Assembly (NCBI GenBank): GCA_950295325.1
Contig: OX485808.1
Span: 7,750,501-7,814,500, forward strand
Direction: 5' to 3'
Length of the DNA: 64,000 nucleotides
Source of the DNA: Polytrichum commune
Lineage: Eukaryota > Streptophyta > Polytrichopsida > Polytrichales > Polytrichaceae
How positions within the stretch are numbered: position 1 is the stretch's first letter; each line of letters begins with the position of its first letter. The position numbers and the translations under genes were made by a program. Of the stretch, positions 13,633 to 32,221 are shown piece by piece. The notes under the pieces were generated by a model. It saw nothing but the letters and a program-made list of their open reading frames with translations. It made no database searches and was not told the origin of the DNA.

Positions 13633-13698
13633 GATGGTTGAGAGTAATTGGGGTTCATTTGAGTGGTTCAGGGACCATGTGGGTCTTCCTGCTGTGGA
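13633..13698 (+). pseudogene. Gene 2, first coding segment (cut by the 16.2-kb element)
   Basis: ATG at 13633 begins MVESNWGSFEWFRDHVG and runs to LPAVD, where the giant element begins. The frame resumes 16.2 kb downstream: the bases encoding LPAV (CTTCCTGCTGTGGA) are duplicated at 29916, followed by LNPRKVDFEG. The joined N-terminus parallels gene 1. Beyond the junction the frame runs into the TIR and stops (EAILRAVSGNF, stop), so the gene cannot make its normal product from this allele. Confidence 0.7.
13685..13698 (+). repeat. Left copy of the 14-bp target-site duplication
   Basis: CTTCCTGCTGTGGA here is identical to 29916-29929. The two copies border the 16.2-kb element and lie at the break in gene 2's reading frame. 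At 14 bp it is longer than the ~9 bp typical of Mutator-like elements. Confidence 0.75.
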
Positions 13699-13700
13699 CG

Positions 13701-13733
13701 AAGCTATTTTGCGAGCGGTGAGCGGTAACTTTT
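13701..13733 (+). repeat. Left terminal inverted repeat (33 bp)
   Basis: Begins AAGCTATTTTGCGAGCGG and ends GCGGTAACTTTT. It is the exact reverse complement of 29879-29911. Contains a GCGAGCGGTGAGCGG direct motif (two GAGCGG words) that could be a transposase site. Confidence 0.85.
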
Positions 13734-14144
13734 GAGATATTTTGATTCACATGTTATTTTAATCATTAAGTTTAGGGTAATTTTGGACTAAAAGTAATTT
13801 TGGTAAATTTTTTACTAAATTTAGTCAACGGTGGGACCTATGTCCGTGGACAATTAAGGGCTCCGATACAAGAAAAATTGTAATTATATGAGCAAAAAAT
13901 ATGGTATATGTGGTAAATTGAACATTTGGAACTACTATCAGTAAAAAATAAATTACTGTCTCCACTCAAATACGTATTGTTTTGGATTAATGAGAATTAG
14001 TGGTACTCTAAAAGGATCATGCAACTTTGGAACAAATAAATACATGTGGTGCGTCAAATGACTTGTAGTGGCCCTTTTAGTCTCACTACATCATGATTAT
14101 AAAAGATCTTGCATACATATGTTTCTTTAAAGAAACAGAAAACT
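13734..14144. other. Left subterminal non-coding region of the giant element
   Basis: AT-rich with no ORF. Lies between the TIR and the 3' end of the convergently oriented transposase gene. No promoter is identified. Confidence 0.4.
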
Positions 14145-17100
14145 CTAAGAGTCAAGGTACTTCAATAAACCAGCCTCCAAAACTCGTTTCACTTCGTTGA
14201 AGCTAAAACTAGCTGCATGAATGAACGTGTCTGAATCTGAGTCCAAACCACACACTACAGTAAACAAATAGTACAAATGCTTACAGTTGGCCCATTGACC
14301 CCTTTTCCCAATTGCTTTAGTCGCCATCTCCTTGAAGTTAGGACAAGTGCATGCTGGCAGCTGCGAAATCGTCAAGTAGTATTGCTGAACCTTTGGGGGC
14401 GTGCCGGAATCCAACGAGACTATGCATCCTAATGCAGGGGCTGGGAGCATGCACAATTTGTGCACTTTGGCATTCAGTGAAAGGGCTGACGCACAATTAT
14501 TGGCGTGTTTTGTTGATGGGGCCTTGGTGTTGCACCTAATCAACTTCCCTGAACGTCGGGTGGGAAACTCATCGGGATATGCAGGAATCGTGTAGCTTGC
14601 CAAGTCCAAAGGTAACGGGTGGTCCTGAAAAGTTCTGGAAGGTGTCATCTCCTTCCGCTGGGGCAGTCTAAAGCCTGCGTTTTCTAAAGAGAGTATCTCT
14701 TTGCAGGTTAAGTTGGTTCCCAACTTAACCGGCCATACATCCGGAATGTTCGGGACTGAGACCACCCATCTCCTTTTTGTACCCTTAACGCATCTCTCAA
14801 TGTCGTCATTGCAGAAAAAGAAGTCTTGAGGGTCCAATCTCTTCTTCCGATAGTTATCCATGAGGCCCGAGTAGGTAGGTGCAGCGGTGCTCTTCCCGTC
14901 TTGTACAATCCGAGCGACGCATTTTTTCTTGGTGATTGCTTGTAGAGCAAAGCAAGCCTTCGCAGATGTCTTAGGCAGCCGTGCGATGTGCCACTGGGCA
15001 GGGTTGCATAATGTCTCTTCAACCGCGGTGACGTGGTACCGATCCACCTGATGCGAACCGTCAAGTGTTGGAAGTTCCGGCTGCTCTTCATGTGGAATTG
15101 TGGGAGAATCTGGAGTTGTGGGAGAATCTGGAGTTGTCACAGGAGGTGGAGAATCGTTAAGACGGGCAGACCTGGTTTGGACACGTGGTTGGGATATACT
15201 GATCTTGTCTGGCCTGTGAGATTCGCGTTCGTCACCGAAAGCAATATCTGGTTTACGCTTCTGAGAAACAAAAACCTCTTCCCCTTCGAGGTGGGGAGTC
15301 CTCGTGCACCACTCGTCAGCGCCAGGCATCTTCAAGATGGCCTCATGCAGCGGTTTCGATATACCTGTTTTTGCGGCAGACCTTTGAGCACGCCTCAGCT
15401 TCAATTCCTCCTTCGACGGTCCAGTTCCAGGGTTGTCTCCCTTCAGGAACTGGGAATATGCTGAGCACTGCATGAAAGCACGCACGAAATCATCGACTGT
15501 TGCCACATAAAGGTCGCTGCCTCGATCGCCGGATTGTTGCTTCCACTTGTTATATATAGATTCAGCAAGGTTACAAGATGGCATTTCCGCTAGTTCAGCT
15601 TCACTTAGATTCTGCAATGCCCGTACAGTCCGAATTAGAATAATGTAGTTGAAGTAAGTGTAGTTGAACTATAAAGAGGAAACTATACAGGAAAGGGTTT
15701 GGCAAGAGTTTAGGCTTACCAACTCCATAAAGCCACCCCATTGGCGGTAACGGAAATGCCAGAAGGCCAGCCAGAGCTCGAGTCGAGGTAGAGCTTGTTC
15801 AGTTGCTGCTCCGGATGACATCCACCATGCCCGAATTGCCAGAAACTTTGTCTCGGCCTCGGCCATCGATTTCGCATTCTTGTATTGCTGGCATAGGATT
15901 CGATGTTGATATTGCAGGTCTTGACGGATATCGGCCTTGGTATGTTTCTCCAAGGACTGGGTCCAATGGAAAAGACAAGTCCTCTCTCTGTCCACCATCT
16001 TCTCAGACGCATCTCCACTTCCGTATATGATTCGAATAGCATTCCAGTTGGCTTGGGCACTGTCGGCCATGAAACCTTTAAAATTGACTTTGTGCACTCC
16101 ATGTTGAGCCATGAGAGCGTTCAAGTTCTTCCACACGACTGACTGGGCAGCAACATCTTCAGATTGCATGTCGCATACTGCGATGGTCATGACACGGCAA
16201 TATGTGGAATCGTACACATGGCAAGCCATTGTGGTCCATGACCTGACCCGTTTGACATGGTCAAACATGATCCACGAGTTTTCCAAGTCACCACCGGGTT
16301 GCATTCGTTTGACCAGGTCGACGCCGCTGCCCGGCCCAACTTCAGACATTTTGAAGACAAAGACCTTGTCCATGTCTGCTCTTTGCCCTGGAAACCTATT
16401 ATGCTGCACGAACTTCCAATTGCTAGCACCGCGTAACTTGGTAATACTGTCCATGACTCCAAAGCGACGCATAGTCCTGAACGTGGTGACTGCATTACGA
16501 ATGTTGGGCGATGTGAGGTGCTTACATCGATCGAAAATGAGTTGAAGCTCGTCGAGCTCCAACAGCTTCTGAGGGTCACCTTCTTTAGCAAGGAGGAGTG
16601 GACCCAGCACTTCCTTTGCAGTGTCAAGCACAATAGTTGAGCGAGTGGTTGAAGGGGTGCGTTCGACTTGCTCCCCAATCATTTTATCTGTGAAATCGAT
16701 GAAGTCTCGATGATCACCTGACTTGACGGGATGGGCGTGAGATCCCAAATGCACACAAGCCCTCGACATGTGAGGTGTCGCAGTAACATAGTAGATCTTG
16801 GCAGGGCAGACAGCAACACAAGTGGGAGGGACGTTGCATGATTTGCAAACAACCGTGGAACCAGTGGGAGGCTTGGACCCAACTTCAAACACTTTCTCTG
16901 ACAATCCTTCCCACTCTGTTTCATTGACTTTGGAAGTCCTGTGGTCTCGCCGAAGATACTCACATGCAGGATTGTCGCAACGGAGGTGGCCAAAACAGGA
17001 TGATGTACGAAACAAAAGCTTGAGATCATTATGAATATTGGATGTAATCGTGCGAGACCAGGCATGGCCATCGTACCTTCTATCCATTCCACGAAGGAGC

Positions 17101-17810
17101 TTGGCCTTTGTATTATGGCCATGATGACCCAACGGTGGAAATTCGAAGATAACGTCCCCGTCGTAACGAGGGGGAAGGTAATCAACATGCTGGAGTCTGA
17201 TTGTATCAAAGTTAATTCGAGACAAAACACTTTTGGACCGCTTACGACCTCCTAGGCACATCAATGAAGTAATGATGCTGACAACAGGAGTGGCCACAAC
17301 CTTGGCCTGATCTGGATTACGAGACGGACTAACAGGAGGAGTTGTGTCCTTGCGAACTACTTGTGGAGATAGGGAAGCTTGGACTTTACTCTCTGAATTT
17401 AAGAATTCAACATCGGCGTCGGAATCATCACTCAACTCATGAATTGTATTTAGACCGGGCTCAACTTTGACCCTAGCCAGCAGCGGTCTCTCAATGCTTA
17501 CAGTGGACGACTCCTTAGGTGTTAGAAGTTCAGTGGAACATTCAAACACAGACTCCGAGACTCCATAAACACGATATTTTCCGGGCTTGAGCAACCAGAA
17601 CGCACATACATCATTCTCTAATCTAGTGTGACGAACTGCATGTGAAACTAGACCGGTTTGATCGTCAAAAACGTCTTCTTCGACAAAGATAGTGACATCA
17701 CGATATTGAAACCTCAAACTCAATGTGGCACAAGTGACTATAGCATGACCGTCTTCACCTAATGGAAAGAGGACCGGAACATAATCAGATTCAGCACGAA
17801 GGAGGGCCAT
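14145..17810 (-). CDS. Mutator-like transposase with GCM/WRKY-like zinc region and SWIM finger
   Basis: Two exons on the minus strand. Exon 1 is 17810-15720 (ATG at 17810, MALLRAESDYVPV) and ends GGFMEL at a GTAAGC donor. Exon 2 begins after GCATTGCAG near 15611 (NLSEAELAEMP) and ends at 14145, giving about 1185 residues. From M1: acidic linker ~100-160; a Cys/His-rich GCM-like DNA-binding region ~215-365 (CFGHLRCDNPACEYLRRDH, then CKSCNVPPTC); a MULE DDE core ~500-650 with first Asp in VYDSTYC (~534), second in FMADSAQAN (~583) and the C..H pair in RTCLFHW (~612-615). A C-terminal SWIM finger reads PACTCPNF ... WANCKHLYYL (C-x-C...C-x-H). The reading frames look intact. WRKY/GCM fingers fused to MULE transposases are known; this one is probably active or recently so. 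The N-terminal hydrophobic codons upstream of M1 are intron or leader sequence. Confidence 0.8.
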
Positions 17811-18185
17811 AGTATAACACAGATCTATGAAAAAAACAAGTACCCCGAACAATGAAATGGCAAGAATATATAACACAGTAAGAAATTTCAGGGCAAACTG
17901 GCAATGTATGTACAAGCAAGCGGAATTTGAAACGTTAATAGATAGTCATGCATAGTAAGCTGAAAGACGGCTGAAAAACCAAGTTTAGATGCAAGACCGA
18001 CATATGTAAGAAACCAAAATAGTAGAATCCAATAACAGGCATACATATCAAAAAAGTATAATCCAATAACAGGCATACACTATAAACATTGATGATTATA
18101 ATATATGTTGGCAAATAAGGTCATAAGAATGACGGCCGCCACGAATAATGTGGATAGCATGATAGAATAGAATGCTACATTGTGA
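17811..18185. other. Upstream region of the transposase gene
   Basis: Contains two direct copies of a ~40-bp word (ATAATCCAATAACAGGCATAC-type, near 18025 and 18060). Probable promoter/5' leader for the minus-strand transposase. No core promoter motif is claimed. Confidence 0.35.
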
Positions 18186-18614
18186 TTAACGACGAATACG
18201 CTTATGGGGCCCTTTGCCATATTTGACAACATCATGTTTATGACAATGGTCAATCCCTAAACTAAGAACTGCATTGCATCCTGCGCAACCGAGTTTCTGA
18301 TCATCGGGACGTGGGGCATTCCTTAAAAGAGATTTAGAGTAATTGCCAGGTCTAATAACCCCTGCTCTAGAATAGGCATGAGTCCGTAAAGGAGACTTGT
18401 CCTCTATCAGCGTTGCAACATCTACTTGCAAAGATGGAGTCTGTGGATTAGGAGTGTGAACCACGACCGCCGGAGTAACTGAGATATCAGGTGGGTTGGC
18501 AATCTTCATGCTGTTGACGTTTGCAGAACCATCGATGGACAAAGTGGTATGAATGTGAGATGAACTAGGAGCACATATAGGAGTAAGGCATGGGATAACT
18601 GAGTCAGTACCCAT
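18186..18614 (-). CDS. Small cargo ORF with C-terminal Cys/His cluster
   Basis: About 142 codons from ATG at 18614 (MGTDSVIPCLTPIC); the frame stays open further upstream. The N-terminal two thirds is Ser/Thr/Pro-rich. The end reads LGCAGCNAVLSLG, DHCHKHD and finishes in a basic tail (KGPHKRIRR). The C-x2-C ... H-C-x-K-H spacing could bind one zinc ion, and the tail could contact nucleic acid. It lies on the same strand as, and 5' of, the transposase, so it may be an accessory element protein or an upstream transposase exon. No family is recognised. Confidence 0.45.
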   Translation of the reverse strand: MGTDSVIPCLTPICAPSSSHIHTTLSIDGSANVNSMKIANPPDISVTPAVVVHTPNPQTPSLQVDVATLIEDKSPLRTHAYSRAGVIRPGNYSKSLLRNAPRPDDQKLGCAGCNAVLSLGIDHCHKHDVVKYGKGPHKRIRR

Positions 18615-18758
18615 TGGAGAAGAATATGATGAGATGACATGAAGAATGGGTTCAAATAATCGGGATATATACACATTGAGTAGACAATAAGAGCCGAATT
18701 TTTGACAACCTGTTAGATCAGTTAATAGTAAATATTTATTCATGTAGATTCTGGACAA

Positions 18759-19038
18759 CCTGTTTCATGTATGAATAGGATGTACTAGAATAGTGGTCAT
18801 CCCTTAATCACCACAAATTATATGACATGGAAGAAAAACGATTATGTAGAAAAGATTTTAGCGCCGCCTTTTGTAGTGTATTAATGCAGTGCGGATTAAC
18901 AAAGGAACAATTTAAGTAAGTGAAGAATAACTATCTAATTACATCGTAATATGAACATAACGATGGCGCATAAGATGTTAACTCTGACATACTTGAAAAT
19001 GATATATAAGATTTGTTTGCTCCACATGTTTGTTAGAG
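18759..19038. promoter_or_regulatory. Probable bidirectional promoter region between minus- and plus-strand genes of the element
   Basis: This short interval separates the leftward genes (Cys/His ORF, transposase) from the rightward ParB-like/methyltransferase gene beginning at 19039. No specific motif is identified; the promoter role is inferred only from divergent gene orientation. Confidence 0.3.
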
Positions 19039-22000
19039 ATGAACACTAGGTCGAGAGCAAGAGCAGAACAAGAAGTTAGGAGGAATACTGAGAAACAGAA
19101 GAGAATTGAGAGAAGGCAAAGGTTAGAATCAAGAGTAAGCATAGGGACGCCGTACAATTTGCGGACAACAATGGGTAGACGAGGGGTTAATTCTTCTAGG
19201 GGTACAGTTAGAGGTTTGGAAGGGGAAAAAACATATGATATCTCCGCGGTAGCTCCCATCGTTTTATTTCCAGTATCAGAAGAAGACAACACAGTTGGAA
19301 AAGGGGGCAGTGAGGTGTTGTTAATATGCATTACAAAAGATACTTATTTATTTGCAATCGCAGTGTTCAATTCTATCATGGAAATTGCTTTGTACAATTC
19401 ATAAGCAATTGAGACATATTAAGTCAGTTTGTAATTTGGCAATGTAAAGGGATTCTTTATTGGTTTTTTTATATGTGGTGTTGGAATGGGAATTGGTGTC
19501 GGGATATTGAACAGGGAATGACGCAGAATGACCTACAACCTGGGGCAACTTCGAGTGCATCAACATCAATACATAGTGAGAGCCAAGTTTGTAAATTAGT
19601 TTGGATTTGGATACTTTTAGGGTTTCGGGTTAGGGTAATGTTCCTTTTCAATGATAGCAGTTTCTTATGGCCACTTCATTGGTAATGGGCACATGCAATG
19701 TCAACTTTTCAGAGCCTAGGTGAATGCAATCGGGACGCCCATATTGTGGATCTTTGCGAAGGCAGCATGGAAACGGAGGAGGAACTCTTCCGAGAAGAGG
19801 TACAATTGTATATTTTCAAGTTTTGAAAGTTCGATATTGGCTAGAAACCGAGACACACATTTCTGTGTGGGGCATTCATATAGATGGTTCAGAAGAGTTT
19901 GTATTGGAATCGGTATTGGAATACAAGGTATGATTAGGGGTGGGTTAGTCATGTCCGAATTCAGTTAGTTCGATAAAGGGTAGGTTATATATTTTCAAGT
20001 TTTGAAAGTCTGGAATTGGCAGGGAAAGGTGTGTCTCGGCACGGAGACTAACATTTCATTGAGGTTCATTCAAATATGTAGGGTCAGATTTGAGGGTTCA
20101 GGAGGGCTTGTAGTGGATTCAGTCTTGGAATATAAGGTCTGATTAAGGGTGGGTTAGTCCTGTTTGAAGTCTGCTGAGTCACACAAACACTAGTTTGTGT
20201 AAGGGTAGGCTTAATATTTTCAGGTTTTGAAAGTCAGAAATTGGCTAGGAAATGTGTGTCTCGGCACCGAGACACACATTTGTGTGTGGGTTATTCATAA
20301 ATGTACGATCAGATTTGAGGGTTCAGAAGGGCTCGTAGGGGATTCAGTCTTGGAATATACGGTCTGACAATGGGTGGGTTAGTCCTGTGTGAATTGAATT
20401 TTGTCATACAAAAGCTAGTTTGATTAAGGGTAGGCTGTATATTTTCAACTTTTGAAAGTCAGAAATTGGCTGGGAAATGTGTGTCTCGGCACCGAGACAC
20501 ACATTTGTGTGTGGGTCATTCATAAATGTATGATCAGGTTTGAGGGTTCAGAAGGGCTCGTAGTATATTCAGTCTTGGAATATAAGGTCTGATTAAGGGT
20601 GGGTTAGTCCTGTTTGAAGTCTGATGAGTCATACAAACACTAGTTTGTGTAAGGGTAGGCTTAATATTTTCAGGTTTTGAAAGTCAGAATTGGCTGGGAA
20701 ATGTGTGTCTCGGCACCGAGACACACATTTGTGTGTGGGTCATTCATAAATGTATGATCAGATTTGAGGGTTCCTATAGGCTGCATATGATTGGGTCTTG
20801 GAATATAAGGTCTGATTAGGGGTGGGTTAGTCATGTTTGAAGTCTGCTGAGTCACACAATAGGTAATTTGATTAAAGGTAGGCTTAATTTTCTCATGTTC
20901 TGAAAGTCTGAAATTGGCTGGAAATGTGTGTCTCGGCACCGAGACACACATTTGTGTGTGGGTCATTCATAAATGAATGATCAGGTTTGAGGGTTCACAA
21001 GGGCTTGTAGTGGATTCAGTCTTGGAATATAAGGTCTGATTAGGGGTGGGTTAGTCATGTTTAAAGTCTATTCAGTCAGACATATGTTCATTTGTTTAAG
21101 GGTAGGCTGTATATTTTTCAAGTTTAGAAAAACTGAAATTGGCTGGAAAATGTGTGTCTCGGCACCGAGACACACATTTGTGTGTGGGTCATTCATAAAT
21201 GTATGATCGGGTTTGAGGGTTCAGGAGGCCTCGTAGTGGATTCAGTCTTGGAATATAAGGTCTGATTAAGGGTGGGTTAGTCCTGTTTGAAATCTGCTAA
21301 GTCACACAAACACTAGTTTGTGTACGGGTAGGCTTAATATTTTCAGGTTTTGAAAGTCAGAAATTGGCTGGGAAATGTGTGTCTCGGCACCGAGACACAC
21401 ATTTGTGTGTGGGTCATTCATAAATGTATGATCAGGTTTGAGGGTTCAGAAGGGCTCGTAGTGTATTCAGTCTTGGAATATAAGGTATGATTAAGGGTGG
21501 GTTAGTCCTGTTTGAAGTCTGCTGAGTCACACAAACACTAATTTGTTTAAGGGTAGGCTGTATATTTTCAACTTTTCAAAGTCAGAAATTGGTTGGCAAA
21601 TGTGTGTCTCGGCACCGAGACACACATTTGTGTGTGGGTCATTCATAAATGTATGATCAGGTTTGAGGGTTCAGAAGGGCTATTAGTGTATTCAGTTTTG
21701 GAATATAAGGTCTGATTAGGGGCGGGTTAGTCATGTTTGAATTGAATTATGTCATTCACAAGCTAGTTTGATTAAGGGTAGGCTGTATATTTTCAAGTAT
21801 TAAAATTCTGAAATTGGCTGGAAATGTGTGTCTCGGCACCGAGACACACATTTGTGTGTGGGTCATTCATAAATGTATGATCAGATTTGAGGGTTCCTAT
21901 AGGCTGCATATGATTGGGTCTTGGAATATAAGGTCTGATTAGGGGTGGGTTAGTCATGTTTGAAGTCTGCTGAGTCACACTATAGGTAGTTTGATTAAGG

Positions 22001-25000
22001 GTAGGCTGTATATTTTCAAGTATTAAAATTCTGAAATTGGCTGGAAATGTGTGTCTCGGCACCGAGACACACATTTGTGTGTGGGTCAATCATAAATGTA
22101 TGATCAGATTTGAGGGTTCCTATAGGCTGCATATGATTGGGTCTTGGAATATAAGGTCTGATTAGGGGTGGGTTAGTCATGTTTGAAGTCTGCTGAGTCA
22201 CACTATAGGTAGTTTGATTAAGGGTAGGCTGTATATTTTCAAGTATTAAAATTCTGAAATTGGCTGGAAATGTGTGTCTCGGCACCGAGACACACATTTG
22301 TGTGTGGGTCATTCATAAATGTATGATCAGATTTGAGGGTTCCTATAGGCTGCATATGATTGGGTCTTGGAATATAAGGTCTGATTAGGGGTGGGTTAGT
22401 CCTGTTTGAAGTCTGTTGAGTCACACAATAGGTAATTTGATTAAAGGTAGGCTTAATATTCTCATGTTCTGAAAGTCTGAAATTGGCTGGAAATGTGTGT
22501 CTCGGCACCGAGACACACATTTGTGTGTGGGTCATTCATAAATGTATGATCAGATTTGAGGGTTCCTATAGGCTGCATATGATTGGGTCTTGGAATATAA
22601 GGTCTGATTAGGGGTGGGTTAGTCCTGTTTGAAGTCTGTTGAGTCACACAATAGGTAATTTGATTAAAGGTAGGCTTAATATTCTCATGTTCTGAAAGTC
22701 TGAAATTGGCTGGAAATGTGTGTCTCGGCACCGAGACACACATTTGTGTGCGGGTCAATCATAAATGTATGATCAGATTTGAGGGTTCCTATAGGCTGCA
22801 TATGAGTGCTGTCTTCAAATATATGGTATGATTATGGGTGGGTTAGTCATGTTTGAATTTAATTAAGTCAGACAATTGCTAGTTTGATTAAGGGTATGAT
22901 TTATATTCTTTACTTTTGAAAGTCTGAAATTGGCTGGGATGTGTGTGTCTCGGCACCGAGTCACACATCTAGGAGAGGGTAGGTTGAGGCAAGTAATGTT
23001 TGCAAACCAAATTCTGATATTTTTGTGGCTATGCTTGCAGTTACAGAACATCGTCATGGAGGATGTTATTGTGTCTGTAGGCAATTCTGAGGAGGTTCAA
23101 GATGAAGATGAAGAAGGGCTTGGATATAGAGATACAGACGAAGGGGATGAAGATGATATTAGAACCCATCATAAATTGAATTCCATTGCCACGATATCTA
23201 CCCTGAGAGTCCAACCCTTTAATTCTTCAAGGTTTAATATTCCTTTGTGCAGAATGTTGGCCATGCCTATGGTCAGGTCAACTCTCTCAAGCGACCTTGC
23301 AAAATTAAAGCAGGAATTTGTGCATGGGTATAGAGAGGGTGCCTCGGTGTTTTATGTGACACTTACAGATGAAGAAGGCAAGACACGTGAGGTTACTGAA
23401 TCGCATAAGGCATCGTGGGGTCCCTTATGGAGATCAAAAAATGAAGAATTCAACTCATTTCTTAGTTCCGTCCCTGAGTTAGCAAGTCTTACGAACTTCA
23501 TGTTCTTTGTTTGCGACGGGAACCATAGGCGTCAAGCTTGGTTGAATCATATTGCACGTCTTCACAACTCGGAAGAGAATTGGCATTATTCGGTGGATAG
23601 TATCCTCCTGGATACCAAGGGAAAAATAGGTATTGTCATGCAAGCTATGCATGACATCAACAAGTAAGCTTTTCATTATCTAATGTTTTCATCTATGTGA
23701 AGTACTTTACATATTCATATATTCTGTTGAATATATATTTAATTGATGATTGTTACTTATAGGCATACAAAAGATTCTCACGTGAAGACCAACACAGTCC
23801 ACACTCTGTTTAGGGTGCAGAAATATGGTCTTATGCCTCTTGAACAATTCCATGACATATTGACTCCAGCCGAAATCAAAAGATGTAGGAAATCACAAAA
23901 TGCGAAGAAGACGTGGTATTCGTTGAACCTTCATGTTTTTACGAGGTTCATATAGAAGGTATATTCTCTATAATACTTAATATGTATGTCTTTCTCTTTA
24001 TGTATATCCAGTTGTATATTTCTGAACTAACTACAGTGACCTCTTTGCAGCACGAACTGGGACTTGCTGCAGACGAAGGTGTTCGTCAACTTGTTGAACA
24101 CACGGATGGAGAGGTATGTGCGGCTGAAAGAACAACCGCCATGAAGGTTGCTGCTTCAAAGAGAGCCGAGGCACTTCATAAGAAAATGTCAAAACTAGTT
24201 TGTGTGGCAAACCCAGATTTGACAGACGGATGGCTTCAGGAGGTATGTGCATTACTTTAAATCCAATTTTTCATTAATCAAGAAATGCAATGTACTACAT
24301 GATTCTAATATATTGCTTCTTATTTGACAGATTGCGCGTCACTACACTCTTAATTCAATTGCACCGGAGCTCAACTTAGAGAAATTGCAGTTAATCGCTA
24401 CAGCAAAAGCATCTCCCGCTTCAAAAATCAAATGGTTGGAATATTTCAATTCCTCTGCATCAACACGTGAGGCCCGTAAACTACCAGCCAAGCCCACCAA
24501 CGAGGAGAAATTGCAAGCATTCTTAGGCAAGGCATGCTTTTGGGAAGGAGTGAGTACTTGACCCCCTTTCTTTCCTTTACTTATAAGTGAGCATTCTATT
24601 GGTATTGCAATATATTGATACGTGTTTTTCTCATTCATGTTAGCTCGTTCCTCAGATATCCGAACAAGCTTCCATCATATTTGAAGACACTTTGCGACAA
24701 GACAGACTCCCCATTAATTTAGACATACCCAGCGAGCCCTTGACGTTGGCGGCGTACATCGAGGACTGTAGGATGAAATTATGGGACAATGTATTTCCAA
24801 CTTTCTTCCGAGGGCAAGAAGCTTTTAACAAAACTCTGGAATTTGTGGGATTTACCGGAACTGACTTAGTTGTGCGAAGAGTCCTCTTTCGGTAAGTACT
24901 CTCTTTAACTACTATAAATATATAAAATTACTATCTGATTTGAGTGTTCAGATAAACTGGCTTAGGATTCAGTTCACAAGGGCTTTGTGTGTTGGTCATT

Positions 25001-28000
25001 CATAAATGTATGATCAGATTTGAGGGTCCAGGAGGGCTTGTAGTGGATTCAGTCTTCGAATATAAGGTCTGATTAGGGGTGGGTTAGTCAGGTTTAAAGT
25101 CCGTTCAGTCACACGAATGCTAGTTTGATGAAGGGTAGGCTGTATATTTTCAAGTATTAAAATTCTGAAATTGGCTGGAAATGTGTGTCTCGGCACCGAG
25201 ACACACATTTGTGTGTGGGTCATTCATAAATGTATGATCAGATTTGAGGGTTCAGAAGGGCTCTTAGTGGATTCAGTCTTGGAATATAAGGTCTGATTAG
25301 GGGCGGGTCTGTCATGTTTGAATTGAATTATGTCATTCACAAGCTAGTTTGATTAAGGGTAGGCTTAATATTTTCAGGTTTTGAAAGTCTGAAATTGGCT
25401 GGGAAATGTGTGTCTCCGCACCGAGAGACACATTCATGTGTGGGTCATTCATAAATGTATGATCAGATTTGAGGGTTCAGTAGGGCTTGTAGTGGATTCT
25501 GTCTTGGAATATAAGGTCTGATTAAGGGTGGGTTAATCCTGTTTGAAGTCTGCTGAGTCACACAAACACTAATTTGTTTAAGGGTAGGTTGTATATTTTC
25601 AACTTTTCAAAGTCAGAAATTTGCTTGGAAATGTTTGTCTCGGCACCGAGACGAACATTTGTGTGTGGGTCATTCATAAATGTATGAACAGATTTGAGGG
25701 TTCATATATGCTTGTATTGGATTCAGTCTTGGAATATAATGTCTGATTAGGGGTGGGTTAGTCATGTTTGAATTATGTCAAGTCAGACATCAGCTAGTTT
25801 GATTAAGGGTAGGCTGTATATTTTTTGATTTTGAAAAACTTATATTGGATGTGAAATCAGTTAAATCTGACATTATCGATTCTGTTTATGCTAAACTAAT
25901 TACACTCTGAATTTCCACAATGGTTTTTTAATCTGATTTCCTGAAATTTGAAGTTCATTGATAGTTATGATTGGATGTCATTGTGTCTTTCCTGTAGGTA
26001 TCTCAAGTACGAGCTCCTTGCAAAAGGAGCAATCACAAAAGAAGACCTCCCCATATTTCTCTCTGCATGGGTTGACAGGTCTAACGCAACTTGCATGTTC
26101 TCAGCTAATCAACAGCGGACCTGGTCAACCTCGCATCTCACAGGAGGTGGATGGTATCTCGACTGTGCTCCCAGTTTTACACCGGTCTTTGAAATTGAAC
26201 TTAGGAAGTCCAGGGAAGCTGTAGGAGAGTCTGGAGTTGAAATGGTAGATTTACTGGGCATAGAAGACGAGCACGAGAGGGCAAAGGCCCTCTCGCGAAG
26301 TCTAGAAGAAGATAGGAAAAAAACACTAAGGGTTAAGGAAGCAGAGGAGAGAGCAGCGCAGAAAGATAAGGCGAAACTCCAGAAGTCTCTGGAGAAGTCT
26401 AACAAGAGGGGGAAGAAGAATATGAGCCCCCCTCCAGAGCCAGAATGTAAGAGCCCACCTGCGCCTAGTCCTACATATGACTCTGGTTCTCATGCTCCAA
26501 CTCAGTCTAGAGGAACCAAACGCGATTCCTCCTATGAGCAGTTAAGCCAGGGAATCCCTGCTTTCACTTCGGTTGAGGAGCATGATGGCCAAGTTGGGGA
26601 GTGGATTAAAAACTTCTCCCTAGAGCAAGTCCTTGGTGGCGACACTGGCAGCCTAAGTCCATTGTATGATGACTTAAAGAGCTTCATCTCTAAGGTAGCA
26701 TACTGGTCAACACATTTGCGTTGTTGATGTCTAATATCAATTCTAATTCTAAAGCTCCTGAGTTTGTAATGTTAGCTCTGAATTGTCTTTCAATCATTGT
26801 TTGGTCATCATTCTGAGTTCATTGCCATCCAACTCACCATGTACTGAAGTGTGATTGAGTTCTTCCCCATTTGCTATTTGATATTAAATCAAATCAAATT
26901 TTCCTAATCGACTTGTATTTTACAAGTTGATCATGTACTTCATTCACAATAATTCACAACGATGTCCAGTTAGAATGTGTGCAAGTAAGTCAGAGCTTTC
27001 CTAAATTTCATTTCTTGCGCAGTACTCAAGTGAGAAACGCCGACGCTACAAGGGATCTGCTGCGGAATTACCCTGTGTGGATTTGATTCTAGCAGATCTT
27101 CCTGAGGGCCTTCCTGTTCCTGGAATTTCGAATCCACCTTCATCTGTTCCCGCCTGGAACATCGAACCTCAGGATTGGTTTCAAACAATCTTTGATTTCG
27201 CTGATCATCACCTCCAAGACGATGGGGCGATAATTTTGTTCCATCCTTTTTGAGTTTCTACAAAGTCAACCATTCTTGGGTGTTGTTCCACATATGGATT
27301 TGCCGTTCGCAAAGAGTGGTGGGGGATGAACAAGCTTCACCTGATGTCCCCAATTAATCCAGTATTGACTGTGAGTTTTTTCTTTGGTATTTCTTATTGC
27401 TAATTTGATTGATAAGCACGGCAGTTTTGAGGATCCACTTTCTAAAAGTAATCTTCCATTTCATATATTGCAACGTGCTTACTGATTAGATGTTGATTGG
27501 ATTGTGATTAGGCCTATAACATGATTTGCATGGGAAGTTAGTTTGGATTAGTTGGTGGCAAGGTTGTGATTAGGCCTCTTCTATGATTTGAGTGTGAATT
27601 CAGTTTAGTGTTGATATTGGCAAGGTTGTGATTATGCCTCATCTCTGATTTGAGTGTGAATTCGGTTTACGTTAGATGTTGGTAAGGTATTTCGTTTAAT
27701 GATTTTTATCTTCTTTTGTAAGTAATCTAATTAATTGTTTTTGACATCTGTAGACCATGAGGTTCGGTATAACCTTGGTTGTGAGGAGCATTCCTGAGGT
27801 GTCTGCTTCCATATTTTGCTTTCAACACATCCCTGCATTAGACCGTCACGGGGTTGATGTGGCACGGGATGACATCCTCCAGAACTTGGTGTCAAGGGAG
27901 GATCAGTTAATGCATGGATCCACCCCATGGCGTGGTCCTCGTGAAAAATCCCTCTCCCTTATGCAGATGCTCATTCATGCATCTTCTTCGCCTGGGGATA

Positions 28001-28728
28001 TTGTTCTAGACTGCTCTACATCTACGGGTACGTTTAACATCTCTTATTGTTACCCAAAATAATGTTTGACCATTTCATGTTCCTTAATTTTTATGTTGTT
28101 TGAGAACTGAACTTCATTGTTTTCTAATTTTGCAGGAGTTTCTATTCATGCCTACCGCAATGTGAACCGCCACATTGCGGCATTAGAGGATGATAAGGCA
28201 ATTTTTGAAGCCTTAATCGCTCCTCTAATTCGATCTCCTCCTGCCATAGAAGTGAAATCAAGAGACGTTGTCATCTCAGAGGATCCAGATAGCGAAATCA
28301 TTGTTGTTCAGAAGATCGTGAAGAAGTCAAGGTTTAGTAAGTGAGTATAGCTACAATTTAAACTGCTAGTGTTGTCTTTTCTGATTTGCTTTCATATGTA
28401 GCGATTTTATGACCATGTTGCCATTTGCATTTGCAGAAGCGGTGATTTGAGATACCCTAGTCACCGCCCTTTTTTTGGTGACACTCAGTTCTATCCGAGC
28501 CCTCCAAAGTCCTGGCAACTCCCTCCGTACGCAAATGACGTTGCCAATGAATTAGCGAATGGTTCATATCGTACATTTAGACCTAAGGAGTTGATGCTAG
28601 GAGGTATAGAGTATGTTGATTTAGAAGCTGTTGAGTATGAAGATGAAGGTTCTTCAGATGCAGATAGTAGCGATTCTAAAGTCTCTGTAGCATTATCTGA
28701 TCATTGTGATTTCGATTTTATGAATTAG
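19039..28728 (+). CDS. ParB-like / DNA N4-N6 methyltransferase-like fusion gene (13 exons)
   Basis: Proposed exons, phase-consistent: 19039-19314, 19515-19586, 19713-19799, 23041-23663, 23763-23958, 24051-24242, 24331-24549, 24656-24891, 25998-26694, 27023-27370, 27754-28027, 28136-28340, 28437-28728; about 1,230 residues. The start MNTRSRARAEQEVRR is Arg-rich. Residues ~200-360 resemble the ParB N-terminal fold (VRSTLSSDLAKLK ... FFVCDGNHRRQAW ... MHDINK). A charged helical linker follows (~755-840). The C-terminal half resembles the Pfam N6_N4_Mtase layout: VDLILADLPEG in the motif IV position, PWRGPREKS then GDIVLDCSTSTG at motifs X/I, then NRHIAALEDD. Two in-frame stops are visible (TAG 23953, TGA 27251), so it may be decaying or my exon 5 boundary is wrong; exon 6 is also open in a second frame. 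Bacterial/phage ParB-methylase fusions are common; introns exclude contamination. Confidence 0.65.
19800..23040. repeat. Satellite array 1 (15 units of ~223 bp) inside intron 3 of the ParB-like/methyltransferase gene
   Basis: Units share blocks such as ATTTTCAAGTTTTGAAAGTC, GGGTCATTCATAAATGTATG, TATAAGGTCTGATTAGGG and GGTGGGTTAGTC. Palindrome starts at 20250, 20475, 20699, 20922, 21148, 21373, 21598, 21822, 22045, 22268, 22491 and 22714, with degenerate units near 19846, 20025 and 22939. From 21822 onward spacing is exactly 223 bp and the units are nearly identical, showing recent homogenisation. Donor (19799/19800) and acceptor (23040/23041) bracket the array precisely. Since 223 is not divisible by 3, minus-strand 98-codon ORFs recur in it as by-products. 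Confidence 0.9.
21822..21853. repeat. 32-bp palindrome of the satellite unit (representative copy)
   Basis: Arms AAATGTGTGTCTCGG and CCGAGACACACATTT around a central CA; 15 of 15 bases pair. The same sequence is perfect in most units of both blocks, while flanking satellite sequence varies more. It could extrude as a cruciform, fold as an RNA hairpin in the intron, or be a dimeric protein-binding site. Confidence 0.85.
24892..25997. repeat. Satellite array 2 (three to four units) inside intron 8 of the same gene
   Basis: Same family as array 1, starting shortly after the GTAAGT donor and ending ~170 bp before the acceptor at 25997. Palindromes at 25179 (perfect), 25404 (degenerate: CTCCG and a shifted right arm) and 25629 (paired changes). 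Units are more diverged than the right half of array 1. Confidence 0.85.
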
Positions 28729-29000
28729 GTAGAAGTATCTGTCTTATTGCTTGCATACTAATAAAGTTTTGCATTTGCTTGTTAATTGTCCGTTTAGTGC
28801 GGTAATCTTCATGGTTTTCTGTAGATAGTGAATTATATATTGTAATGCCTTCTTACACTCTTACCCTAAATCCTCCTTGCACTCAACAAGATAGAATGGA
28901 AGAAAAATGGAATAAGGAAAAAAAAGCTTGTGCATATAATATGGACCTCATCCTATGTTTTATGTTCAAATGAAACATCAAACCCCAAGAAATCCTAGGC
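28729..29000. other. 3' flank of the ParB-like/methyltransferase gene
   Basis: AT-rich, with AATAAAGTTTTG near 28760 that could serve as a polyadenylation signal about 30 bp after the stop. No ORF. Confidence 0.35.
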
Positions 29001-29790
29001 CATATCCAAAGTGGCCACTCCCACACGAAATCCGAACCACTTGGCATGCCGGGTCTAAACCTTCAACCAATGATTCGATTTCAAATTTATGGTTGTAGGT
29101 TGAATGTAGCTAAACACAAAACCCAACCATGGCATTCCTACATGCAACCACAAACCATAAAACTTGACCTCAAATCAAACATAAAACCCCTACAAATAGG
29201 AGACCTTCTCCAAAGTGGCCACTTTGAAGTCGGCTCCATTTGGCATACCGAGACTCAACCTAAAACCAATGAATCGATTTCAAATTTATTGATTCAGGTT
29301 GAATGTAGCTAAACATGAAACCCAAACATGGCATGCCAACATTCAACCGGAAACAATAAACTTGACCTCAAATCAAACAGCAAACCCCAAGGCCAAGGGA
29401 CCTCGGATCCGAGGCCTTCTGCAAAGTAGCCCCTCCACTTCAAATGCCGAGACCCACCTAGAAACCACCAACTTTAAACACAATCAGAATTTAGGGGCTC
29501 AAGCCATGAGGCCTGGGGTCCGAGGCTTTCTCCCAGTGGGACTTAGTCCACCTCAAATGACAACCTGTAAGCATCCGAGACCCATTCCCAACCTACAAAC
29601 CTTATACCCAATCTGAAATGATACCGCAGCCATGAGGCCTGGGATTCGAGGCCTTCTACAAGTGGGACTTAGGCCACCTCAAATGACAACCTGTAACCAT
29701 CCGAGACCCATTTCCAACCTACAAACCTTATAAGATAAGGTGTGTCAACCATGGTTATAGGTTCCGCAACCACGGTTATAGGTTTTTTGT
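29001..29790. repeat. Right subterminal tandem repeats of the giant element
   Basis: Two copies of a ~205-bp unit (both containing GATTTCAAATTTAT and GTTGAATGTAGCTAAACA, near 29070 and 29275), then two copies of a ~125-bp unit (AAATGACAACCTGTAA and CATCCGAGACCCATT, near 29558 and 29683). AACCATGGTTATAGGTT / AACCACGGTTATAGGTT follows at ~29748. Subterminal repeats are common in large Mutator-like elements. Confidence 0.65.
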
Positions 29791-29878
29791 CAATAAATTT
29801 GTCAATAAAAATTTCAAAAGTTAGCTCTACACCGTGGTCATAGGGCTTGTTTCACTTGACAAAATTTTGATATTCTAG

Positions 29879-29911
29879 AAAAGTTACCGCTCACCGCTCG
29901 CAAAATAGCTT
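29879..29911 (-). repeat. Right terminal inverted repeat (33 bp)
   Basis: Exact reverse complement of 13701-13733 (reads AAAAGTTACCGCTCACCGC ... AAAATAGCTT). Followed after four bases by the right 14-bp direct repeat at 29916-29929. Confidence 0.85.
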
Positions 29912-29915
29912 TTCC

Positions 29916-30344
29916 CTTCCTGCTGTGGATTTGAATCCTAGGAAGGTTGATTTTGAGGGGCGAGATGGCTTGATTCGAGAATGTGATAGTCTGTGGGGAA
30001 TTAGGCAAGGTCATGGTGGTTACCATTTCATGGATGCAGGTCCCAAGGACCTGCAGGAGAGGATCCTTACCTTGTGGCCCCTGGTTTACCAAAGAGAATG
30101 GCCACAAGCCAAAGAAATTGGCCTCTCCTTTGCACTTGGAGTCATGGCTGAGAGGAGAGGTAGTACAGTCAATTGGGCCTTATTTGCAGCTATGGTTCAA
30201 GTCTCTGGCTATAAAACACATAAACGTCCACCTTCAGATTTTGTGACAATTAGCTCTCCTAGTACTTCACCTGTCACAACAAACATGAAGGGAAAGGGTA
30301 AATCTCCTATTACCTCTCCTAAGTTTCCAGCTTGTGAGAGAGTG
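29916..30344 (+). pseudogene. Gene 2, second coding segment
   Basis: Continues gene 2 from the duplicated LPAVD codons into LNPRKVDFEGRDGLIRECD, then HGGYHFMDAGPK, LYP-type helical sequence and VNWALFAAMVQ, ending SPKFPACERV at the next insertion. The VNWA(A/L)FA motif and overall spacing match residues ~1-115 of gene 1. The segment after it (SSPSTSPVTTNMKGKGK) is the Ser/Lys-rich linker also seen in gene 1. Function unknown. Confidence 0.6.
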
Positions 30345-32221
30345 TGAGGCCAAACCCCCCACCCTTAAGCGTCCGTAGTCCGAGTAGTGGGTTTGGGCTC
30401 ACATTCCTCCGCGGTATTGGATTTGGACTTGGATGAGTCCATAGTGCAAGGTTCACCCTTCAAGTGGTCTTGGATTTAACTTTGGTCTTTGCTTCCTTTG
30501 TCTTGCCATCGCGAGAGTGCTCCACATTCTCCATTAATTTGTGCACGTGGTTTATTTTTAAAGAGAGGATGCAAGTGTTAAAAAAACACTATTCTCTATA
30601 GTCAATCTCAAATACATTTACTTGTGAAAGCCACACATAACACTAACTAGCATAATGTAACTAACTACTTGTCTATGAGCTAATTAGGTAGGCTATCTAC
30701 TAAGCTCCTTCATGAACCCATCTCTTTACTTTCTAATTACATAAACCTAGCTCCTTCATAAACCCAGCTCCTTCATAAACCCAGCTTCTTAGCTTCTAAC
30801 TAAACAAACCCAGCTCCTTCATGAACCCAGCTCCTTAGCTTCTAACTAAACAAACCCAGGTCCTTCATAAACCCAGCTCCTTACTTCTAACTAAATAAAC
30901 CCAGCTCCTTACTTCTAATTAAATAAACCCAGCTCCTTCATAAACCCAGCTCCTTCATAAACCCAGCTCCTTAGCTGCGGCTACTTCTAACTAAGTTTCT
31001 CCACCCTCAACCACAAAAACCAGAAAATGAACAAAAGAGAGCTTCTCCAAGGCCTCCCCCTAATTCACCTACCTAATTCCACTAATCCCACTAAGTCCCC
31101 TACCTAATTCCACATTTTTTCCCGAGCTCTAAGAGCTCAACTTCCTAGAGAAGAGAGGGAGAGAGAGAATTTCCTAACTTCACTAAGACTAACTAATCCA
31201 CACAAGTATATTTTTGCACTCATCACAACATCAAGTGCTCAACTCTTAAACATGGAACTTGCAACCACGTGTATTCAAAACATGAACTTTAAGTACCACA
31301 AATTGGAATCATGAATTAACTTTAAAATCCTTCACGTCAACACTAATTCTACCAAGAGGTCAAGCCCTCTTCAAGGCTAACAAGCCTTGGCTCTCAAACT
31401 AAAAACTAAGCACACACATGTGCTCCAATATGGCTTCCCACACCCACACTTATAACTCGTGGGGTGCCTTGGAGCACAAAGGAAAGAGAGGATGAGTGAG
31501 GGAAGAATGAGGGATTATATAGTAAGCTTGAGGGGGTGAGCACCCTCAAGGCTCACGATAAGCCCTTGAGATTTCCTCCTACTTAGTAGGCGCCAATCCT
31601 ATCTTCTAAGCCTTCCTCCCTCAAATGATCAACAAGGATCCTAATTCGAACATTTAACTAGCCTTGGCTTTCTACCTACCACACTTTACCAAACTTGGGA
31701 TGCTTCAACCCAAACTTAGCCTCCTTCGCTTTCCGCCGCCATAACTTTCTCCCCTTACTTTCCCAAATCGTCGCTCACCACGTAATTCAAACCACGATGC
31801 TTAACTCGTGATTTGATTGGTGCTTTGAGAATTTGCTTATCCTCCACCTTGCCTTCTTCCTTGGGCCTTCCCCATTAAGTGGCCATGATGAGGTGGTCCA
31901 CTTGTGCGCTCCATGTGATCCTCCATTCATCCCAATTCGAATGCACTTGCCTCTTGAGTCACTTTGGTTGTCTCCATCCATTTGTACTAGCCTACTCACT
32001 AACTACTCAATCCAAGTTCTCCTTACCTATCCTCATTCACTCAAATCCTTCCGAAGGTAAAAACACAATAACAACTCACATCCTAGCCTCTTACAGCATG
32101 GTACTTCTAAGACTAACATTTCACTCTTTTTATATTTTTGTGAAGTAACATGCTACTTCAAAGTGCATCAACTAACGTTTCAAGGGTCTAAGACTAAATG
32201 TGGGCACCCTTTTGGGCTCAC
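30345..32221 (+). mobile_element. Short-TIR element, copy 2 (1.88 kb)
   Basis: Starts TGAGGCCAAACCCCCC and ends CTTTTGGGCTCAC. Perfect 8-bp target duplication AGAGAGTG at 30337-30344 and 32222-32229. It interrupts gene 2 between ...ACERV and ...SDAPVASQKR. Shares the 3' block TTCACTCTTTTTATATTTTT with the other copies. Non-coding. Confidence 0.85.
30715..30980. repeat. Minisatellite inside element copy 2
   Basis: Repeats of AAACCCAGCTCCTTCAT and AACCCAGCTCCTTAGCTTCT. Different from the minisatellites of copies 1, 3 and 4 but at the equivalent internal position. Confidence 0.8.

Follow-up and report, generated by a model that had tools for sequence, protein, structure and literature searches.

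What does a gene with predicted ParB-like and methyltransferase-like halves do for the transposable element that carries it? The window analysed here (the whole stretch of 64,000 nucleotides) contains one such element, whose features are collected in Table 1. We give an even chance to the reading that this large Mutator-like family possesses a self-recognition module, in which a protein of ~1,100 aa, assigned to the ParB/methyltransferase accessory class, would act together with the element's own dyad arrays, probably against silencing.

Table 1. Features of the element and its flanks in the window.
Feature	Position	Strand	Remarks and evidence
Whole element	13696..29916	.	16,221 bp; ends from 7 copies with both termini
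Left target site duplication	13686..13695	+	10 bp, TTCCTGCTGT; sequence and copy comparison
Right target site duplication	29917..29926	+	TTCCTGCTGT; sequence and copy comparison
Left terminal inverted repeat	13701..13733	+	33 bp, perfect; 31-nt pattern search of genome
Right terminal inverted repeat	29879..29911	-	33 bp, perfect; 31-nt pattern search of genome
Transposase exon Tp2	14148..15611	-	488 aa, C-terminal Cys/His cluster; ORF, open
Transposase exon Tp1	15723..17810	-	696 aa; open; genome matches
Small Cys/His ORF	18189..18614	-	142 aa; open; 68-75% identity in 6 of 9 other loci
Cargo N-terminal coding exon	19039..19311	+	Present in 7 of 9 other loci
Array 1	19966..22968	+	13.4 tandem units of ~223 bp, most with palindrome AAATGTGTGTCTCGGCACCGAGACACACATTT; presumed cargo intron
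Cargo exon with ParB-like signature	23041..23663	+	GNHRRQAW; at least 150 scored genome matches
Cargo exon B	23763..23958	+	In-frame TAG at 23953-23955 in window copy; conservation
Cargo exon C	24051..24242	+	Conservation in other loci
Cargo exon D	24331..24551	+	3' boundary approximate; conservation in other loci
Cargo exon E	24644..24892	+	Boundaries approximate; conservation in other loci
Array 2	24984..25824	+	3.7 units of the array-1 repeat, in what is presumably the E-F intron
Cargo exon F	25998..26694	+	232 aa; 150 scored matches of 976 candidates
Cargo exon G	27023..27370	+	Region of methyltransferase motif IV (DLPEG); window copy has an in-frame TGA (27251-27253)
Cargo exon H	27754..28027	+	Methyltransferase; conservation in other loci
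Cargo exon I	28136..28341	+	Methyltransferase motif I region; profile and sequence comparison
Cargo exon J and stop codon	28437..28728	+	
Single dyad near right end	29402..29413	+	CTCGGATCCGAG

Element boundaries and transposase

The 33-bp perfect inverted repeats of the original prediction are present, and a genome search with a 31-nt TIR pattern (up to 3 mismatches) returned 57 matches, compared with none for the reversed control. The 14-bp direct repeats reported with them are also identical (13685-13698 and 29916-29929), but the target site duplication (TSD) is 10 bp, because other copies fix the start of the element at GGACGAAGC and its end at ..TTTTCCC, which rules out a 14-bp duplication; in the longer repeat, the 10-bp TSD is extended by a single element base, C, and by GGA, through chance matches to the flanks. 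Read by eye in all seven elements with both ends, the TSD measured 10 bp in the window copy (W), D1, D2, S and B2, 10 bp with one mismatch in B1, and 9-10 bp in A1. As had been proposed, the segment interrupts the reading frame of gene 2: when joined, its flanks (146 nt) correspond at 89-98% to six unbroken copies elsewhere, of which five are equal in length and one is shorter by 3 bases, and the two best uninterrupted relatives match at 143/146 and 141/146.

Mutator-like elements have TSDs of 8-11 bp (PMC6446971), a length that fits in 7/7 two-ended elements, and TIRs are found family-wide and are perfect in the window copy. Tp1 occurs at at least 64 places in the genome, the other listed ones being 77-92% identical, and the Cys/His ORF has no match in element D1. 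Both transposase exons and this ORF are open, in line with the intact MULE transposase and Cys/His ORF first described, but no Pfam MULE model matched (PF10551, the MULE transposase domain, in 0 of 24 transposases at E-values up to 10). We take the C-terminal Cys/His cluster of Tp2 to be SWIM-like; the CxC...CxH and D..D..CxxH-like patterns seen by eye in the transposase, which lack a profile match, may represent a SWIM finger and a DDE triad. The assignment as a Mutator-like element with ParB/methyltransferase-type cargo therefore keeps its TIRs, its Mutator-length TSD and its cargo as a family trait, but the label, which rests on TSD length, TIRs and the presumed zinc-finger pattern, is weakened by the PF10551 result.

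A family of cargo-carrying elements

The element belongs to a large family with dozens of related copies in a plant-type genome. At 46 of the 64 listed transposase places (65 matches, one second fragment being dropped), cargo exon F lies divergent and downstream within 45 kb, compared with a mean of 0.59 and a maximum of 4 under random placement (300 trials); a listed cargo partner is absent at the other 18. This exon F set comprised 126 places after removal of the 24 weakest of 150 matches, which were mostly second fragments of listed places and included about 5 separate places. Six of the seven two-TIR elements carry the transposase and the full set of cargo exons, some of them interrupted by stops or frameshifts, and gene order is identical in the six complete TIR-bounded elements; the seventh (S) has only fragments. 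Because six of seven hold both components, the TIRs mostly do not enclose the transposase only; 9 of 57 TIR ends lie within 30 kb of a listed transposase and of no listed cargo. Nor, for the same reason, does the cargo seem to reside mainly outside TIR pairs; 60 of the 126 listed exon F places have no listed TIR match or transposase nearby.

The original 13-exon model gave way to ten coding exons (23041-28728) and an upstream N-terminal exon, with splice sites placed by consensus and conservation rather than RNA data; the protein would measure 1,097 aa from the ParB exon to exon J. Two in-frame nonsense codons exclude an intact cargo gene in the window: the TAG in exon B is read through in 7/7 other copies (two of which have a different stop in the same exon), and the TGA in exon G in 8/8. 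Across the family, the cargo is nonetheless under purifying selection, with median dN/dS of 0.175 for the ParB exon (from the 66 of 300 pairs with usable dS), 0.148 for exon F (13 of 28 pairs usable) and 0.132 for exon G (14 of 28). A recent chance gene capture is ruled out by these values, well under 1, together with the size of the family.

Transposase and cargo are discordant in their divergence. Faster cargo evolution was rejected as the cause because synonymous divergence is discordant too (for the W-B1 pair, dS is 0.235 in the transposase vs. 0.976 in exon F), and module exchange fits better.

The two halves of the cargo protein

Profile and sequence comparison show that the C-terminal half is genuinely related to N6/N4 methyltransferases, and its catalytic motif is degenerate. 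PF01555 scored above its cut-off in the A2 and D1 copies (7.3e-9 and 2.7e-8) and just below it in the window copy, and the cargo matched DpnA at E 7.8e-8. Active N6A/N4C DNA methyltransferases have a catalytic motif IV of the form (D/N/S)PP(Y/F/W). Methylation by the cargo is doubtful because D-[LIQ]-P-E replaces this DPPY-type motif in 9/9 exon G copies; motif IV reads D-L-L-E in L068, and D1 has DCTAATGSS in its motif I loop, where DpnA has DPFMGSGTT. A cargo enzyme that is still active and places N6A or N4C methylation on the dyads of its own element, a role of the kind suggested for the algal proteins, would agree with the PF01555 homology and with an Ectocarpus protein described, in the accessible part of the report, as a predicted maker of N4mC or N6mA (PMC12477816), but both altered motifs speak against it and we consider it distinctly unlikely. 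Of the earlier suggestion that the cargo may modify or mark element DNA, modification is thus in doubt, and the site arrays described below lend more support to sequence recognition.

The "ParB-like" designation is weakened, its evidence being at motif level: a G-x-H-R-x-x-A-W signature is invariant in 25/25 copies of the ParB exon, and the most frequent match, a weak one, was PHROG_1033 ("ParB-like partition protein"; 11 of 25 copies, best E 0.046). Pfam ParB models matched none of the 25 copies, two AlphaFold predictions of the exon were uninformative (pLDDT 34 and 44) with no Foldseek match, and hhalign of the cargo, entered as four-copy alignments in which B2 exon I was in the wrong frame, against 120 prokaryotic ParB-methyltransferases was not significant. 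A PF02195 search of the genome at E-values up to 1 found one match on contig C12, two on C23 and one on C10, none of them in the cargo. The loci on C12 and C23 look bacterial or phage-like. A scan of 5.8 billion proteins, in which 7,992 candidates were scored, revealed no relative of the cargo, and IMG/VR contained none of the ParB exon or transposase.

Dyad arrays in presumed cargo introns

The window element contains ~19 copies of a ~225-bp repeat in two presumed cargo introns, 13 of them with an exact 20-bp dyad; the original prediction did not describe these arrays. The array dyads have a 2-bp centre and two-fold symmetry, and GTGTCTCGGNNCCGAGACAC or near forms are common to the arrays of W, A, B, S and C1, whose units are otherwise dissimilar (periods of 223-225, 244, 295, 139 and 233 bp, respectively). 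With the motif masked, the best cross-family unit similarity was E 0.011 over 13 bp. Weak similarity was seen between W and B2 units (44 bp, 75%, E 0.038) and between W and C1 units (29 bp, 79%, E 0.038), so distant common descent is possible for some arrays. Within arrays, the conservation margin of the motif is small in W (0.915 vs. 0.911), 5 and 18 of 149 windows outside the motif are equally conserved in A1 and C1, and in S the value is too high because of units placed in both orientations.

Genome-wide, GTGTCTCGGNNCCGAGACAC has 997 exact copies compared with 0 for the control, and all 50 sites listed are at such elements. TCGG-N2-CCGA was among the top 3 arm-4 dyads at 11 of 12-13 cargo loci examined, and NCGG-N2 dyads with at least 3 copies were found in neither of two control stretches; in C2, where the 5' half of the cargo is missing, the best NCGG-N2 dyad ranks 28th. 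Tandem repeats are frequent in the window and the genome, and the unrelated palindrome TTTGGGTCGNNCGACCCAAA is present 9,731 times, as expected if the arrays were ordinary minisatellites and the palindromes hairpin- or cruciform-prone by-products of tandem duplication with no partner protein. That explanation is very improbable in our view, given one 20-bp dyad common to otherwise dissimilar units, the location of all 50 listed of 997 sites, and dyad flanks that shift with cargo lineage.

The bases flanking the dyad core follow the cargo lineage and not the transposase. With a transposase of 44% identity, C1 nevertheless carries the dyad of the W type (1 exact copy, 13 with a single mismatch), whereas D1/D2, at 86-87% identity in Tp1, have an altered site. 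In L067, whose cargo exons match at 54-81%, GG[GT]TTCGGNNCCGAA[AC]CC occurs 19 times when 2 mismatches are allowed, 16 of these copies being exact, and the W-type site is absent. The core itself is not universal, L074 being the exception: in this 43%-identity lineage, the 4 kb upstream of the ParB exon contain no CGGNNCCG, and a different dyad, GGGTGCCGT..ACGGCACCC, occurs once in perfect form and imperfectly in a 95-bp array.

Dyads near the right end, present in W, A1, D1, D2 and S, and the retention of arrays in the S derivative, from which most coding sequence is gone, would also suit sites that bind the transposase or regulate transposition, with the cargo a transposition helper like mudrB-type ORFs. 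We regard this as unlikely, since most dyads lie inside presumed cargo introns and not at element ends, the right-end dyad is missing from B1 and B2, and sites track the cargo rather than the transposase lineage (C1 vs. D1/D2). A ParB-like partition or clustering system that joins element copies or aids segregation, unrelated to silencing, would draw on the ParB-like signature, the weak PHROG matches and the palindromic, parS-like arrays; it is hardly credible, as elements integrated in chromosomes have no need of partition, the fold comparisons gave no confirmation of ParB and no ParA-type match was found among six element and flank ORFs scanned.

Proposed mechanism

The preferred reading is self-recognition. 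We infer that the cargo protein, probably as a dimer, binds the intron dyads and would load densely on its own element, which would then escape silencing or have altered chromatin, as with VANC on VANDAL arrays; ParB-like spreading outward from the dyads is possible. The methyltransferase half, its catalysis probably lost or altered, may serve DNA recognition. What the analysis establishes is the architecture, the copy number, the purifying selection, the site arrays and their shift with cargo lineage; binding, dimerisation and anti-silencing are the inferred steps. Put in terms of parS, the case stands evenly poised that the family has a system of its own, in which a ParB/methyltransferase-derived protein and intron dyad arrays coevolve by lineage (a CGG-N2-CCG core with changing flanks, and a different dyad in the distant lineage) and cargo modules are swapped among elements with near-identical transposases.

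If the dyads are recognised by the cargo protein, this would be a newly seen form of transposon self-marking or self-protection. A ParB-methyltransferase gene is paired here with a base-level binding prediction and with diverged protein-site pairs in one genome; therefore the function of the protein class is testable by one binding assay. If true, cognate sites are predicted for the whole algal ParB-methyltransferase class.

Comparison with known systems

ParB-methyltransferase accessory genes are known from brown, red and green algal transposons (PMC12477816). The original statement that no MULE with such cargo has been described may remain correct for MULEs as such, but algal transposons with this class of cargo are in the literature; one is Sola1-1_Ec32 of Ectocarpus, a giant DNA transposon whose ~1,100-aa gene, on the strand opposite the transposase, is described as joining a ParB-like domain to an N4/N6 DNA methyltransferase domain (PMC12477816, accessible part). 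The cargo described here likewise has an N4/N6 methyltransferase-type domain, ~1,100 aa and an orientation divergent from the transposase; the likeness to Sola1-1_Ec32 and to the red-algal (Bostrychia) and green algal transposons is drawn from their description. Sola1-1_Ec32 differs in being a Sola1 element of a brown alga, whereas ours is Mutator-like with a 10-bp TSD in a genome with TTTAGGG telomeres, and the available text on it mentions no site arrays and does not contain the word "palindromic" (PMC12477816). TET/JBP-carrying fungal transposons, in the part of their description available, are likewise DNA transposons with a DNA-modification enzyme, but of another class (PMC12730594).

Prokaryotic and phage ParB-N6-methyltransferase fusions, exemplified by the L063 ORF (with 479 relatives at an E-value of 1e-10 or below), have a ParB-type part followed by a PF01555-type part, as in the cargo; that ORF differs in its 443 aa, canonical DPPY and PF02195 domain, and profile comparison of such fusions with the cargo was not significant.

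VANC-type proteins carry DUF1985, with Ulp1 in some members of the anti-silencing family, and no VANC-type Pfam domain was found in the cargo pieces scanned. As far as the available sections of the reports go, VANDAL21/VANC21 of Arabidopsis is similar in being Mutator-type, with a cargo that recognises short motifs spread by tandem repeats in introns and noncoding DNA, and in that protein and motif diverge together (PMC5735166, PMC10398659). Our family also has tandem-repeat motif arrays in presumed cargo introns and a motif that diverges with the protein, the L074 core excepted. The VANC protein is unrelated and its motif, YAGTATTAY, is 9 nt long and arrayed in one orientation (PMC5735166, available sections), in contrast to the 14-20-bp dyads and methyltransferase-related protein seen here. 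If true, our reading would place in this family a sequence-specific anti-silencing system that arose independently of the VANC type and, beside VANDAL/VANC, would offer a possible second, unrelated case of sequence-specific self-recognition by a transposon.

Ends of the element and related empty sites

The cargo-bearing Mutator-like element of the window is real, repeated and selected. The original prediction gave it 33-bp perfect inverted repeats, which are present, and identical 14-bp direct repeats, which are also present but are not its target site duplication (TSD). A 111-bp left-end query against the genome (G000; 408 Mb in 64 contigs, with TTTAGGG repeats at 4 of 5 chromosome ends read, which makes the host plant-type) produced 40 scored matches among 114 candidates, and the 39 outside the window begin at query position 4–8, so that the element start falls within the supposed 14-bp repeat. 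Seven elements with both ends, read by eye, start with GGACGAAGC, end in TTTTCCC or similar, and are flanked by duplications of 10 bp (five elements), 10 bp with one mismatch (one) or 9–10 bp (one). A TSD of 14 bp was thereby ruled out, and the window element was delimited from the termini and duplications of these copies (see table).

Joined through a single TSD, the window flanks have uninterrupted counterparts at six other loci (89–98% identity), five of them without length difference and one shorter by 3 bases; base by base, the two best agree with the joined flanks at 143/146 and 141/146 positions. The empty site sought for gene 2, the reading frame split by the element, was thus found as related loci, since uninterrupted copies elsewhere make gene 2 a repeated family. 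That family may itself be mobile.

Coordinates of the element and of other features (contig names are distinct from loci C1 and C2)
Feature	Location	Remark
Window	C6:7750501-7814500	in G000
Terminal inverted repeat (TIR)	window 13701-13733 / 29879-29911	33/33 identical
Window element	window 13696-29916	TSD TTCCTGCTGT
Gene 2	window 13640-13695 and 29927-30347	six or more uninterrupted family members elsewhere
Tandem array outside element	window 55005-55840	13 copies of 65-bp unit; GCCTNAGGC palindrome at 12 places
TIR-bounded derivative (L030, L031)	contig C3:45893701-45903774	most coding sequence lost; dense 139-bp-period dyad arrays, both orientations
Dyad-array locus	contig C1:463006-471927	dense 139-bp-period dyad arrays; only left-end match and sites seen
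Distant cargo lineage	contig C3:38989732; further examples, contigs C1:20227830, C5:42528178, C7:11394587	nearly equal scores in ParB exon search
PF02195 matches off chromosomes	contigs C12:29034, C23:8829, C10:13362	
TTTGGGTCGNNCGACCCAAA palindromes, examples	contig C1:616089-617338; L068:8974	

Family size and linkage of transposase and cargo

A 31-nt TIR pattern (≤3 mismatches) matched the whole genome 57 times and its reversed control 0 times. The search with transposase exon Tp1 (64 scored among 2,435 candidates) gave at least 65 matches at 64 places, the non-window copies being 77–92% identical. Cargo exon F (exF) and the ParB exon each gave at least 150 matches (the best 150 of 976 and of 1,232 candidates, respectively), the latter in lineages at about 65–85% and at 40–45%. 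Linkage was compared for 64 transposase, 126 exF and 57 TIR places, leaving out the 24 weakest exF matches, and all counts are lower bounds among the matches listed. At least 46 of the 64 transposase places have a divergent exF no more than 45 kb away and oriented as expected, against a mean of 0.59 and a maximum of 4 pairings in 300 trials of random placement. Transposase or exF lies within 30 kb of at least 49/57 TIR ends (26 both, 9 transposase only, 14 exF only and 8 neither, by neighbours listed), and at least 66/126 exF places lie near a TIR or transposase, the other 60 being without either among the matches listed.

Among the predicted proteins of public genomes and metagenomes are 58 transposase relatives (P0001–P0058; 46–95% identity), mostly on short contigs; since they are up to 95% identical, the window's organism or a close one seems to have been sampled in public data. 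In the distant cargo lineage, whose ParB exon is about 44% identical, many open copies have nearly equal scores, which makes it a candidate for recent activity.

Gene order and the cargo protein

To read the anatomy, nine other loci were searched by tblastn with the exons of the window element, and they show one gene order. Exons Tp2/Tp1 lie with the Cys/His ORF on one strand; next come the N-terminal cargo exon, an array and the ParB-like exon, and then exons B–E, an array in some copies, exon F, again an array in some, and exons G–J. Every cargo exon, some with stops or frameshifts, is TIR-bounded in the window copy (W) and in loci A1, B1, B2, D1 and D2, so the same cargo does recur inside other TIR pairs. 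The Cys/His ORF had no tblastn match in D1, the stretch read for A2 took in just the left end of that element, and locus C2 lacks the 5' cargo half. Locus C1 showed no TIR in the 20 kb read; its transposase piece is 44% identical and its cargo exons, up to exF, 65–79% identical. Locus S, a 10-kb derivative between TIRs, retains MTase exons, large arrays and a fragment of the transposase.

The cargo measures ~1,060–1,100 aa (from W, A2, B2 and D1). Two nonsense codons stand in the window cargo where other copies read on, and many copies have individual open exons, openness being judged exon by exon rather than for the whole gene. The cargo is under purifying selection, with median dN/dS of 0.175 for the ParB exon (66 of 300 pairs in usable dS range), 0.148 for exF (13/28), 0.132 for exG (14/28) and 0.157 for exH (4/21); the transposase median is 0.252 (9/10).

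By profile similarity, the C-terminal half of the cargo is a methyltransferase relative: PF01555 fell just under the cut-off for the window cargo (E 1.7e-5) and above it for A2 (7.3e-9) and D1 (2.7e-8), and DpnA matched the D1 cargo at E 7.8e-8. Motif IV reads D-[LIQ]-P-E in 9/9 copies and D-L-L-E in the distant locus L068, and the motif I loop is likewise altered. G-x-H-R-x-x-A-W is invariant in 25/25 ParB exon copies, for which the commonest match was PHROG_1033, "ParB-like partition protein" (11/25, weak, best E 0.046). Pfam profiles matched 0/25 of these copies, a PDB profile search with the ParB half returned no relevant match, hhalign of the cargo against 120 prokaryotic ParB-methyltransferases was not significant, and an AlphaFold prediction of the ParB half was uninformative. 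PF02195 matched contigs C12, C23 and C10, off the chromosomes; the loci read on C12 and C23 resemble bacterial or phage DNA and are probably assembly contaminants, and one of them encodes a canonical ParB-N6-methyltransferase fusion of 443 aa (L063).

Apparent module exchange between elements

Transposase dS is 0.20–0.24 for W–A1, W–A2 and W–B1, and exF dS for the same pairs is 0.33, 0.32 and 0.98. Protein identity of exF is 89% for W–A1 versus 77% for W–B1, and that of the ParB exon 73% versus 76%; ParB-exon dS of W is 0.93 to A1 versus 0.59–0.60 to L045 and L046. From these discordant divergences the elements seem to exchange modules, and the W cargo looks like a mosaic.

Dyad arrays and their relation to the cargo

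Two presumed introns of the window cargo contain about 19 copies of a 223–225-bp unit, 13 with an exact palindromic 20-bp dyad and 17 at ≤3 mismatches; all 14 genome matches to its 26-bp core (≤1 mismatch) are inside the window element. GTGTCTCGGNNCCGAGACAC or near forms occur in otherwise dissimilar units of A1, A2, B1, B2, S and C1 (28, 28, 12, 13, 25 and 19 sites, respectively, at ≤3 mismatches). After masking of the motif, unit consensuses from different families resembled one another at best with E 0.011 over 13 bp (W–B2 and W–C1, 0.038 each). The 20-column windows outside the motif that were as conserved numbered 0/149 in each of W, A2, B1, B2 and S, with a narrow margin in W and a value in S helped by inverted units, 5/149 in A1 and 18/149 in C1. 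Exact GTGTCTCGGNNCCGAGACAC occurs 997 times genome-wide (control 0), and the 50 exact sites listed, all on contig C1, form six clusters, each at an element also matched in the left-end, transposase or cargo exon searches.

Arm-4 dyads with spacers of 0–4 and at least 3 copies were also ranked by excess over Markov shuffles. TCGG-N2-CCGA ranked first in W, D1, A2, C1 and L068, second in B1, B2 and L067, and third in A1, D2 and S. In C2 the highest-placed NCGG-N2 dyad came 28th, and two control stretches within the window had none with 3 copies or more. TCGG-N2-CCGA was absent from a 13th locus, L074.

The pairing of site and cargo was read in 12 loci and 4 kb of L074. D1 and D2 (Tp1 86–87%, exF about 60%) carry sites of TTCGGGYCCGAGCA type (6 exact in D1; 1 exact and 3 near in D2), and D2 also holds, in an array, an ATGCCGTNNACGGCAT dyad (2 exact, 1 near). 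Locus C1 (transposase 44%, exF 72%) keeps the window's dyad, mostly with one mismatch. L067 (cargo 54–81% by exon, exF 71%) has none of the window's type and 19 copies of GG[GT]TTCGGNNCCGAA[AC]CC at ≤2 mismatches, 16 of them exact; L068 (cargo 28–46% by exon) has TGTCGGNNCCGACA three times. In these loci, therefore, the site varies along with the cargo rather than the transposase. L074, of the 43% lineage, contains no CGGNNCCG, which counts against a universal core, as does the second dyad of D2; some 0.6 kb upstream of the L074 ParB exon there are instead a 95-bp array and another palindrome. The most economical reading of sites that track cargo lineage is that the cargo protein binds the dyads.

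Another palindrome, TTTGGGTCGNNCGACCCAAA, has 9,731 exact genome copies (reversed control 0). At the places listed it often recurs in tandem, the periods being various and the 2-bp centre free, a dyad geometry as in the element arrays with a different sequence; these are perhaps sites of a second system.

Comparison with known systems

Our search, which covered few subscription papers, preprints and supplements, found neither a Mutator-like element described as carrying a ParB-methyltransferase cargo nor a report of dyad arrays for this protein class. In Arabidopsis VANDAL elements, according to PMC5735166, VANC21 binds YAGTATTAY, which tandem repeats array in the VANC21 and VANB21 introns and upstream of VANA21. 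From this parallel we infer that the cargo may have an anti-silencing role.
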